This document shows positions 1 through 3,094 of a stretch of 64,000 nt of DNA, piece after piece. The first letter of the stretch is position 1, and each line of letters starts with the position of its first letter. The position numbers were made by a program, and so were the translations under genes. The DNA is taken from positions 1 through 64,000 of the forward strand of contig WOUR01000003.1 of assembly GCA_009772935.1 (NCBI GenBank), read 5' to 3'. This DNA comes from Rhodospirillaceae bacterium. GTDB taxonomy: Bacteria; Pseudomonadota; Alphaproteobacteria; Reyranellales; Reyranellaceae. The notes under the pieces were generated by a model that saw only the letters and a program-made list of their open reading frames with translations, had not been told where the DNA came from and made no database searches.

Positions 1-45
1 ATGAACATCCAGGCGATCCTTCGCCACATCGATACCTACGAACAT
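1..45 (-). CDS. IS110-family transposase, N-terminal 15 residues only
   Basis: Reading leftwards from the ATG at 45-43 gives MFVGIDVAKDRLDVH. This matches the start of IS110 transposases, where the Asp in GIDVAKD is the first acid of the RuvC-like DEDD catalytic site. These enzymes act with a structured RNA from the element's own non-coding end. A Shine-Dalgarno-like GGGAG lies upstream (plus-strand ctccc just right of the start). The frame is open to the window edge, so completeness cannot be judged. The plus-strand open frame over the same bases is a shadow. Confidence 0.75.
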   Translation of the reverse strand, partial: MFVGIDVAKDRLDVH

Positions 46-228
46 GGATCTTGGCTCCCATCCTTGCGCATGCGGGCTCGCGGTTCGGCCCAGGCGACCG
101 TTCGGGATCACAAAATCAACGGTGGAGGCGCCGAGCTCAGGAACGGGCTTGTCGGCCCCAGGAGCCTCCGGGCTCTCCACCGGTACCGCGCCCGCAACTC
201 TACGACGGCGCGGCCGTCCCTTGATACA
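46..228 (-). ncRNA. Candidate IS110 bridge RNA region
   Basis: In the IS110 group the non-coding segment upstream of the transposase encodes the bridge RNA that pairs with target and donor DNA. Here that segment is about 183 bases, close to the size of the known example from IS621. It contains an outer stem ggtggag (121-127) with ctccacc (175-181) and an inner hairpin agcc (163-166) with ggct (171-174), plus other GC-rich short inversions. Transcription would run leftwards into the transposase. The assignment rests on family knowledge and these stems only; ends and guide loops were not determined. Confidence 0.35.
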
Positions 229-330
229 AGGAGCGGCCGCAGGCTGCGTCTCGAAGGATGGGCAGCAAACTCGGTGCTCGTGCCCATGCTTCGAGACGGC
301 TGCTCTGCAGCCTCCTCAGCATGAGGTTGG
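229..330. repeat. Palindromic intergenic repeat, truncated copy 1
   Basis: Begins aggagcggccgcagg, passes through cgtctcgaaggatg and its mirrored arm catgcttcgagacg, and ends ctcctcagcatgaggttgg. It matches the reverse complement of 7738-7856 apart from a divergent centre. The outer CCTCATCCTG part of its left arm is missing at the inferred IS110 junction. Similar two-armed CCTCA-N3-TGAGG repeats are common between genes in alphaproteobacteria. Confidence 0.75.
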
Positions 331-558
331 TGGTTTGATTCCAGCTTGTTCGGAAAGACCCTCGAGTTCAGGCGCGCTCCAACGAAGCCGGCTCGTGCCC
401 CGGGCGGAGCCGAGGTTGCCCAGGACGTCCGTGCACGGATCCTGCGATATCCAGGCCGCCGAAAACCGGGAATCTCGCGCCGGGGCTTTTTTCGTTTCGT
501 CTGATTCGTTTATTTCGAATATTTCGTTTGTGGACGAATTCCCTTTGGAATCAATCCT
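331..558. other. Non-coding stretch
   Basis: No credible gene on either strand. It ends in an AT-rich block with TTCGTTTATTTCG at 505-517, a 13-base string that recurs at 28489-28501. A T6 run at about 488-493 follows GC-rich sequence, but no convincing terminator stem could be built. Confidence 0.5.
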
Positions 559-972
559 TTAGGCGAAGATCCTCCGCGCAACGATCACCAGCAGTGCGAT
601 GGACGCGACGAGGATGACGAGGAGCGTGACGACGATGCCGGCGGCCCGCCCCGGATTGACGGCGGTCGTCCTGGCGAGGCCGAAGGCGTGGGCCAGGCGG
701 GCCACGATGAAGCCGATGCCCAGCGCATGGACCAGCACCCGGGAGCCGCCGCAGATCTCCAGCAGGGCCAGCAGGATCAGCACCAGCGCTGCATATTCGG
801 CGAAATTCCCGAAGACGCGGCTCATCCGGCTCATGTCGGCATCGCCGCCATCGCCGATGCTGACCTGGCTCCGCTGTCGCTGACGGATCACCAGCGCCGC
901 GAGTAGCACGCAGAGGAAGCCAGTCAAGGCGGCGTAGAAAGCGGTGACGAACGGCAGGGCCGGCATTGCCAT
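559..972 (-). CDS. MAPEG family membrane protein
   Basis: 137 residues with four predicted membrane segments (about 7-30, 59-76, 80-100, 112-135). The loop reading RVFGNFAEY at 52-60 is the Arg...Asn-Phe-x-Glu-Tyr signature of MAPEG proteins (membrane-associated proteins in eicosanoid and glutathione metabolism). Bacterial members are poorly characterised, with glutathione-dependent detoxification suspected. The ATG at 972 is chosen because GGAG lies upstream. It sits only 11 bases after the methyltransferase stop, so the two are probably co-transcribed. A longer reading through to 1701 in this frame is a shadow of the methyltransferase gene. Confidence 0.8.
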   Translation of the reverse strand: MAMPALPFVTAFYAALTGFLCVLLAALVIRQRQRSQVSIGDGGDADMSRMSRVFGNFAEYAALVLILLALLEICGGSRVLVHALGIGFIVARLAHAFGLARTTAVNPGRAAGIVVTLLVILVASIALLVIVARRIFA

Positions 973-983
973 GGGTTTATCTC

Positions 984-1667
984 CTAGGGAGCGCGCACGA
1001 AACGGAACAGGACCTTGTCCTGGCTGTAGTAGCGCAGCTGGTCCACGACCTTCGGAAAATATTCGCTGCCCACCGTGACCGGCATGAAGGCGTCGAGGTC
1101 GAGGGGGCGCACGCCGACATGGAAGCCCGCATCGCTGAACGCCTTGGCGACATCGTCGAGTGAATGGTCGTGGAGCGGAATCGACGAGGTTTCCGCGATA
1201 AGCTTGCGCCAGTGCGACCAGACGGCGCTGTCCTTGTGGCAGCCCATGGCCGCGACATAGGTGCCGCCCGGCTTCAGGGCCGCCTTGATGTCGGCGGCGT
1301 GCGCAGCCAGGTCGGGCAGCAGGTAGAGGACCTCGTGGCTGAAGGCGAAGTCGAACGTCCGGCCGAGCGCGGCCGCGCTCTCGCCGACCTCGTACTCGAT
1401 GGGCCGATAGCCCTTCAGCAGGTCGGCGCGCGCCACCGATTCGCGGGCGATGTCGATGCCGACCGCCGACCGGAAGGGGTGGCGGTCGTAGAGCATCCGC
1501 AGGAAGCCACCCTGGTTGCAGCCATAGTCCAGGATGGTCGACTGGCGGAGATCCTCGTAGATCGAAACGTCGATCATGCGCCGCCAGATCGGCGCATGGG
1601 CGGCACCCATCGCCTCCTCGTCGGCGGCGTTGCGGTTCCAGGTCCGGATGATGGAAGACCGTTGCAT
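984..1667 (-). CDS. Class I SAM-dependent methyltransferase
   Basis: 227 residues. Motif I reads LDYGCNQGG at 46-54, followed by the acidic AVGIDIAR strand and a motif IV-like FDFAFSHEVLYLL, the usual Rossmann-type order of small-molecule methyltransferases. The substrate cannot be deduced. Its stop lies 11 bases before the MAPEG start and upstream comes the MATE pump gene, so 3094-559 may be one unit with detoxification flavour (inference). Confidence 0.8.
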   Translation of the reverse strand: MQRSSIIRTWNRNAADEEAMGAAHAPIWRRMIDVSIYEDLRQSTILDYGCNQGGFLRMLYDRHPFRSAVGIDIARESVARADLLKGYRPIEYEVGESAAALGRTFDFAFSHEVLYLLPDLAAHAADIKAALKPGGTYVAAMGCHKDSAVWSHWRKLIAETSSIPLHDHSLDDVAKAFSDAGFHVGVRPLDLDAFMPVTVGSEYFPKVVDQLRYYSQDKVLFRFVRAP

Positions 1668-1723
1668 CGCTTCCTCCCTCGGAAAGAAGCGAGCCTATCA
1701 TGCCATTGTTACGCTAGCCCGCA

Positions 1724-3094
1724 TCAAGCCCGGCCGCGCCACGGGTGCACGAGTAGGGGCCCCGCAATCAGGCTGCCGAAGGTGACGATGCCGACGGCGA
1801 TCGCGACGAAGACGCCCGGCAAGCCCCAGCCGAGATGCTCGATGGCGAACCAGCCGCCCAGCGACGCCACGAAGAGGCGCGCCACGCCGGCGGCGAACGG
1901 CGCCTTCATGCGGCCCGCCCCCTGGCTCGCGAAGGAGAGCGTCATGCCGATGCCGAACACGAAGTAGAAGGGCGAGACGCGCGTGACATAGGCCACGGTC
2001 GCCGCCACCACCTCGGGGTCGTCGGTGAAGAGCCGGGCCCAGCCCTCGGGGAACAGCGCCACGGCCCAGCCGAAGGCGCCGATGCCGAGACCGGCGACCA
2101 GGCTGCCGATCCAGGCGGCCCGGACCGCCCGCCGCCAGTCGTTGGCGCCGGCGGCGACGCCCACGATCGTCGTGAGACCCGAGCCGATGCCGAAGGCCAG
2201 CGGCACCAGCATGAATTCCAGCCGCACGCCGATGCCGTAGCCGGCCAGCGCGGCAATGCCGAAGCGGCCGACAAGACCCGTGACCAGCATGGCGGTGAGG
2301 TTCGCGGTGAAGGCGGAGAAGGAGGCGATCAGGCCGACGCGCAGGATCTCCCAGAACAGCCGGCCCTGCAGGGGAATGCCGGTAATCGCCGGCACGAAGC
2401 CCAGTTTGCCCCTCCACAGCGCGCGCGCCTGCAGCAGCGCCGACACCGCCGAAGTCAGCAGCGCCGAGACGGCAGGGCCGGCCATGCCCATACCCGGCCA
2501 GCCACCGATGCCCAGCGCCAGCACGTAGGAGAGCGGCACCTGGGCGATCGAGGAGACCAGCATGTAGCGGCCGGGGGTGGCCGCATCGCCGCCGCCGCGC
2601 AGCAGGGCCGAGAGGAAGAAATTGGCCCAGATGAACAGCGAGCCGGTGAACAGCACATGGGAGTAGGTGAGCGCCTTGGCGAGCGCGGCCCCTTCGCCGC
2701 CCAGCTGCCGGTAGAGCGAGGGTGCGACCGTCCAGGCGAGCAGGGTGAACAACAGCGCCAGCACCGCGCCGAGGACCAGCGCGTGCAGCACCAGCGCGCG
2801 GGCGTCTGCGGTGCGGCCGGCCCCCACGGTCCGGGCCATGGCGGCCGCCACGCCGCCGCCCATGCCGCCGGCCGCCATCATGGTCATCATCATCATGAGT
2901 GGGAAGACGAGCGCGAAGCCCGCCAATGCATCGGTCCCCAGCCGTCCGAAGATGAAGGTCTCGGCGATGGCCACGAAGGTCTGGACGATCATGACCGTCG
3001 TGGTCGGGGCCGACAGCTTCCAAAGGCTCTTGCCGATGGGCGCGGTGAGGAGGGGGTGGGACAGAGGCGGCTCCGAGTACGTGTATATACACAT
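1724..3094 (-). CDS. MATE family efflux transporter
   Basis: About 456 residues from the ATG at 3094 with roughly twelve hydrophobic segments in two related halves, typical of MATE cation-coupled exporters of drugs and organic cations. The early region TAPIGKSLWKLSAPTT and the paired LL-rich helices fit the NorM/DinF group. An upstream GTG at 3118 keeps the frame but lacks a ribosome site, so ATG 3094 is preferred. A perfect palindrome GTGTATATACAC (3081-3092) directly overlaps the start region and may be an operator. The substrate is unknown. Confidence 0.85.
   Translation of the reverse strand: MCIYTYSEPPLSHPLLTAPIGKSLWKLSAPTTTVMIVQTFVAIAETFIFGRLGTDALAGFALVFPLMMMMTMMAAGGMGGGVAAAMARTVGAGRTADARALVLHALVLGAVLALLFTLLAWTVAPSLYRQLGGEGAALAKALTYSHVLFTGSLFIWANFFLSALLRGGGDAATPGRYMLVSSIAQVPLSYVLALGIGGWPGMGMAGPAVSALLTSAVSALLQARALWRGKLGFVPAITGIPLQGRLFWEILRVGLIASFSAFTANLTAMLVTGLVGRFGIAALAGYGIGVRLEFMLVPLAFGIGSGLTTIVGVAAGANDWRRAVRAAWIGSLVAGLGIGAFGWAVALFPEGWARLFTDDPEVVAATVAYVTRVSPFYFVFGIGMTLSFASQGAGRMKAPFAAGVARLFVASLGGWFAIEHLGWGLPGVFVAIAVGIVTFGSLIAGPLLVHPWRGRA
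3081..3092. promoter_or_regulatory. 12-base perfect palindrome, possible operator
   Basis: GTGTATATACAC overlaps the first codons of the MATE gene and lies about 60 bases upstream of the divergent cupin gene. Its core TGTATATACA resembles operators of some GntR-family repressors such as HutC. No regulator gene is adjacent, so this is a suggestion only. Confidence 0.25.

Follow-up and report, generated by a model that had tools for sequence, protein, structure and literature searches.

The first 230 bases of the window, the 64,000-nucleotide stretch analysed here (positions 1–64000 of contig C61 of genome G000, starting where the contig starts in an assembly of 124 contigs), most probably hold the left end of an IS110-group insertion sequence, lying on the minus strand, cut by the contig edge and encoding a bridge RNA that would guide insertion into REP-like palindromes. 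We put the probability of this reading at roughly 0.94. Its footing is read from sequence: the ends of the element, an empty site, a fold held by covariation, and the agreement of predicted guides with both target and donor sequences. The features to which we refer below are as follows.

Positions 1–45, minus strand: first 15 codons of an IS110 transposase gene that runs off the contig (residues 245–302, in the numbering of the L001 protein, are on contig C28)
Positions 46–228, minus strand: predicted gene of the bridge RNA in the non-coding left end, from covariation and guide–flank agreement
Positions 56–107, minus strand: predicted donor-binding stem-loop, outer stem 107–103 with 60–56, inner stem 91–86 with 80–74
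Positions 63–67, minus strand: predicted right donor guide GCAAG, able to pair with the left-end CTTGT (GCAAGG in 12/12)
Positions 93–101, minus strand: predicted left donor guide ACGGTCGCC, matching the right end ACGGTCGCT, from guide–end comparison
Positions 119–183, minus strand: predicted target-binding stem-loop, stem 183–170 with 132–119, inner hairpin 158–145
Positions 136–143, minus strand: predicted right target guide TTCCTGAG, pairing with CTCAGGA, from guide–flank comparison
Positions 160–168, minus strand: predicted left target guide GAGGCTCCT, core CT included, from guide–flank comparison
Positions 185–214, minus strand: predicted 5′ stem-loop, from folding
Positions 221–226, minus strand: candidate −10 box TATCAA (weak, 4/6 to consensus), 17 bases from the right-end TTGACC in the joined circle
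Positions 229–230, minus strand: CT core at the left junction, from filled and empty sites
Positions 229–263, plus strand: left part of the REP-like palindrome split by the insertion, the remainder being on C28
Positions 282–326, plus strand: uninterrupted partner REP-like palindrome, with the foot CTCCTCAGCATGAGG at 312–326

A split IS110-group element

The minus strand from 45 to 1 translates to MFVGIDVAKDRLDVH, 15 residues in which an earlier note on this DNA had recognized the start of an IS110 transposase; relatives with whole genes match, bearing this out. The 60-codon frame 180–1, which takes in non-coding bases, has 93–97% identity in L001, L002 and L003, all of which carry whole transposase genes. 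A scan of bacterial genomes with this frame returned 26 loci, including Reyranella records, whose matches were 93–97% identical over most of the query and in many cases lay at contig ends. The L001 protein contains PF01548 (DEDD; E = 5.8e-24) and PF02371 (Transposase_20; E = 2.2e-14) and scores 220 bits against the NCBI IS110 model NF033542 (cut-off 140); L001, L002 and L003 all exceed the cut-offs for both IS110 Pfam domains and for NF033542. Full-length relatives therefore encode the DEDD/IS110 transposase whose absence the note had named as grounds for abandoning its proposal. Compared with solved transposases, L001 gave E values of 7.2e-34 for ISCro4 and 6.1e-31 for IS621. The 15-residue piece from the window matched 0 families among Pfam and NCBIfam models because it is too short to match a model.

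A second gene piece, residues 245–302 at 95% identity, lies at the start of C28 in the same genome. Together with the first 15 residues it is all the coding sequence of this copy in the assembly, the middle with most catalytic residues being absent, and the PF01548 profile found no match in the genome because the copy is split between contigs. The assembly contains one left end and one right end of the element and no more, and its breaks at C61:1 and C28:1 fall inside this singly represented element.

As judged from sequence, the element belongs to the IS110 family and, within it, to the IS110 group: the features that sequence can assess are present, apart from the promoter, for which there are weak candidates, and the unread middle of the gene. 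The ends share exact inverted repeats of at most 4–7 bases in 10 elements (7 in the window's own copy), and in whole relatives a long non-coding stretch precedes the transposase gene (183 bases here). Membership of the IS1111 group was rejected on both counts; that group is marked by subterminal inverted repeats of 11–13 bp (PMC11187229) and by a longer non-coding region after the transposase gene, as described for its member ISPa11 (PMC11187229).

The boundaries of the element were fixed by a genome of the same genus, G030, in which locus L050 is an empty site where both flanks are continuous. Window positions 233–2000 align to L050 1501–3267 (92%), and C28 210–1704 to L050 1495–1 (93%); these alignments start at 233 in the window and at 210 on C28, and filled and empty sites diverge at the CT at 230–229. 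In the orientation of the transposase gene, the filled site is GCCGCTC[CT]TGTATCAAGG ... ACGGTCG[CT]CAAGATGAGG, with the right end ACGGTCG-CT at 210–211 of C28, and the empty site is GCGGCTCCTCAGGATGAGG; the right foot carries one substitution relative to the empty site. With the empty site in G030 and the other end on C28, both junctions are therefore exact. From these alignments, C61 and C28 flank one insertion, and the element ends at 228. The non-coding stretch 46–228, estimated in the note at about 183 bp, is indeed 183 bases long, and its outer edge is a true element boundary. Insertion occurred at the CT core with no longer target duplication between filled and empty site. Core to core, elements measured 1,122 to 1,161 bp (n = 9), the three Reyranella ones 1,123–1,124.

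The system might be as we describe while the copy in the window is a dead remnant, which we consider rather unlikely. The single left and right ends, the missing gene middle and the substitution in the right foot would fit such a remnant, but the left end is 94–96% identical to those of five matches, all full-length or nearly so, in G014, G026 and G016, and the readable parts contain no break. G014 has 10 left ends of the element.

Covariation in the left end

Twelve left ends, from the same genome and relatives, align and share two stem-loops with internal loops; 13 of the 30 pairs in this alignment show changes on both sides. In a shorter alignment, A2, both sides changed in 15/31 pairs, and 96.2% of cells were paired, against 83.0% in shuffles and 31.8–43.1% in slid versions, a control that flatters the structure because the structure was derived from the same sequences. 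The covariation score of A2 was 0.367 vs 0.124, with 0/500 shuffles as high, and further pair types were reached by 2/500 shuffles. A covariance model, R1, matched the window at 46–185 with 135 bits, the window being one of its training rows. The 5′ hairpin was the best fold in 8/8 sequences (the window and 7/7 relatives), whose stem sequences differ; for the window's hairpin, 7/200 shuffles folded as well.

That this region is hairpin-rich is weak evidence by itself. The single-sequence fold of 36–217 on the minus strand (−83.8 kcal/mol, z −1.57) is barely better than shuffles, 11/200 of which were at least as good, and was left out of the evidence; the plus strand of the left end gave z 0.15. 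Covariation over the 12 left ends, by contrast, is above chance. An Rfam search of window positions 1–600 gave three matches, all below the gathering scores of their families.

Conservation of this stretch could also be protein conservation, if frame 180–1 extended the transposase at its N terminus. Upstream of the ATG, the frame is open to the element end in 11/14 elements, and its translated stretches match at 52–58% in L007, L008 and L010–L013. Stops interrupt it in L020, L023 and L036, the stems carry paired double changes, the loops vary with the flank, and at 67% G+C open frames are common. We regard an extension as extremely improbable, and the most likely reading, from the sequence comparisons, remains that the left end makes a small guide RNA, a bridge RNA.

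Predicted target guides agree with insertion flanks

On its 5′ side, the first loop of the predicted RNA carries GAGGCTCCT, to be compared with the left target GCCGCTCCT, and on its 3′ side TTCCTGAG, to be compared with CTCAGGAT in the empty site or CTCAAGAT in the element's own flank. In this copy the left guide agrees with the flank at 5/7 positions and the core. The two sides change together in other elements: CCCCCT with CTCACCCA in L009, AAGGCCCT with CTCACCC in L010, CACCCCT with CTCATCC in L020, CTCATCC with CTGAGGT in G318 and GTCGTCCT with CTGACG in G415.

Across 12 elements, one of them L003, whose contig mixes two copies, left guides agreed with flanks at 61/84 positions vs 33.1 expected (core excluded; 0/100,000 permutations), a test that is not blind, since the left-guide position was set by the best match to the flank and tied with other positions in 5/12. 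When aligned, the left guides nevertheless occupy the same columns in 11/12 elements, L036 shifting by one. Right guides agreed at 43/54 positions vs 27.9 (core excluded; 3/100,000). With one element per target class, the values were 47/63 vs 24.2 on the left (0/100,000) and 29/36 vs 18.2 on the right (2/720 orderings).

Elements held out of guide placement gave the same picture. R1 had matches in 18/385 genomes of the class, of which the window's own genome, G318 and G415 had supplied training rows. The held-out set comprised 24 loci, namely 23/30 R1 loci and L035; the other seven R1 loci were the window's own and six from training genomes, and 13 further R1 matches without a locus lay outside the test. 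Guides were taken from the R1 model alignment and flanks from the nearest CTTGT; L092, L093, L094, L100, L103 and L108, with no CTTGT within 110 bases upstream, were dropped. With one element for each of 12 genomes and a shift of one allowed, left guides agreed at 62/84 positions vs 37.1 (0/100,000 permutations), and with no shift at 46 vs 25.2 expected (4/100,000); in choosing these elements, L089 (6/7) was kept over L106 (3/7), and L101 (4) over L109 (3) and L114 (4). All 18 elements together gave 91/126 vs 57.0 (0/100,000). The held-out L095, L097, L106 and L109 fit at 3/7 even with the shift. On the right, 5/5 loci whose right end could be located agreed at 5/6 positions, three of these loci being copies in one genome; the right-end pattern was absent from 19/24 held-out loci, in some owing to a short locus.

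One genome, G198, contains seven copies of a single bridge-RNA-like match, and its L101, L109 and L114 share one common guide beside varied left flanks (agreement at 3–4 of 7). Perhaps the G198 elements follow a looser or different targeting rule.

The earlier suggestions that the minus strand of 46–228 encodes a bridge RNA and that its loops would foretell the insertion site come out well supported as predictions: the fold shows covariation, its two internal loops track target flanks and element ends, so that the note's second ground for abandoning the proposal did not arise either, and guides follow flanks across related elements, held-out ones included. A different role for the region is suggested by ISPpu9, an element inserted in REPs whose transposase is reported to be regulated by a structured leader at the 5′ end and by two small RNAs (PMC8450116). 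The chief role of the region might likewise be to control translation, as a structured leader or a small-RNA locus, with the protein picking the target, and the donor loop does come as close as about 10 bases to the ATG. A leader, however, need not hold both halves of the target, and here the guides track flanks where targets differ. Leader and guide roles can coexist; a region that is mainly a leader we think very unlikely.

REP-like palindromes as targets

The flank of the insertion is a REP-like palindrome with the foot CTCCTCAGGATGAGG. The same genome has 127 such feet at ≤1 mismatch (66 forward, 61 reverse), and the pattern read in reverse gives 0. Among the 100 places listed of these 127, the palindromes often stand as pairs in inverted orientation, some 95 bases from each other. 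Left flanks of 17/18 close copies end in GAGACG-stem-TCCT within a REP-like palindrome; the 18 are those of the window's genome, four other genomes and L001, obtained from 19 places by omitting the more distant L035 and L036 and adding L001. A search of the literature for the foot letters CCTCAGGATGAGG returned two papers with bovine and human subjects by title.

L035, from a second Reyranella lineage (G001), has guides on the same REP foot on the opposite strand, CTCATC-CT-GAGGAG vs CTC-CT-CAGGATGAG. Guides and flanks in G318, from another genus (L069–L078), lie on that genome's own REP foot, also on the opposite strand (CTCATC-CT-GAGG).

The sole exception among the 18 close copies is L039 of G016, which interrupts a reading frame and whose left guide fits its target at 2/7. 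Its left flank belongs to the same insertion as the right flank of L003, each being one side of it, and contig L003 is therefore a join of two copies. These sides are adjacent in the window's genome (L081), where the intact site lies inside a 686-codon open frame, and within about 15 bases of each other in G014 and G021. The contigs of L003 and L039 (G016:C437 and C448) have swapped flanks, either in the assembly or through recombination of one copy with the other. We dropped the idea that L003 is a single insertion whose right target had switched, as its right flank belongs with the left flank of L039.

The right guide of L003, GCTGAG, fits the right half CTCAGCA and may belong to either of the two copies mixed in that contig. 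A single base of this guide in G016, GCTGAG in place of CCTGAG, would fit CTCAGC rather than CTCAGG sites, among them the insertion in the reading frame. Off-target insertions are reported for IS621 (PMC11208160). We suggest, tentatively and with more doubt than confidence, that IS110 lineages may switch from one repeat to another through minor alterations of the guide that can be read from genomes, with REP feet serving as a shared platform for convergent guides.

Donor guides and a possible mechanism

The three types of left donor guide correspond to the types of right end in 10/10 elements, an agreement that is not independent because a similar pattern served to locate most of the right ends; the right end of the window's own copy was fixed by the empty site. 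In 9/10 joined junctions, TTGAC lies 17 bases before TATCAA, TATCTC or TAACTT, all weak −10 boxes; L020 is without TTGAC, and in L009 a perfect TATAAT occurs deeper in the element, within the 5′ hairpin. The weak boxes and this internal TATAAT make any start point provisional; a promoter that might form where the circle closes would probably place it 10–20 bases inside the edge at 228.

Carrying over from IS621 the formation of a circle, transcription, RNA–protein binding and activity, we infer the following sequence of events. Excision would form a circle joining the −35 box of the right end to the −10 box of the left end, and the joined promoter would drive a bridge RNA of roughly 150–180 nt from the left end. 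The first loop would pair with both halves of the CTC-CT-CAGG site in the REP-like palindrome and the second with the joined ends of the element, ACGGTCG-CT-TGTATC, whereupon the transposase would recombine target and joined ends at CT.

Comparison with known systems

The mechanism is already published, having been described recently, and the element is a well-supported but ordinary new example of it; a literature search for Reyranella with insertion sequence found no report of such an element and returned one paper, on aquaculture sediment by title. It is of value as a clean example from nature: the element, its empty site, the repeat it targets and the guides are all readable from sequence. 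Related elements with different guide–target pairs, together with a copy that breaks the rule, could test targeting rules.

When the L001 protein was compared with a plasmid collection, the one collection queried, the nearest annotated relatives were ISMno7-like IS110 elements of Methylobacterium nodulans plasmids (57.0% protein identity over 97% of L001). Specific insertion into REPs is likewise described for ISPpu9, ISPpu10, ISPa11, ISPsy8, ISRm19 and ISRm22, in REPs and hosts other than those here (PMC1525189); ISPa11 differs further as an IS1111-group element with its non-coding region downstream, whereas that of the present element is upstream (PMC11187229). IS621, as described in PMC11208160, shares with it a long non-coding left end upstream of the transposase, a 5′ stem-loop (here predicted) followed by two stem-loops with internal loops, a CT core within the guides, left guides for the bottom strand and right guides for the top strand, and a REP target. 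To the promoter that spans the circle junction in IS621 there corresponds a weak candidate here. The two differ in their sequences, host and REP.
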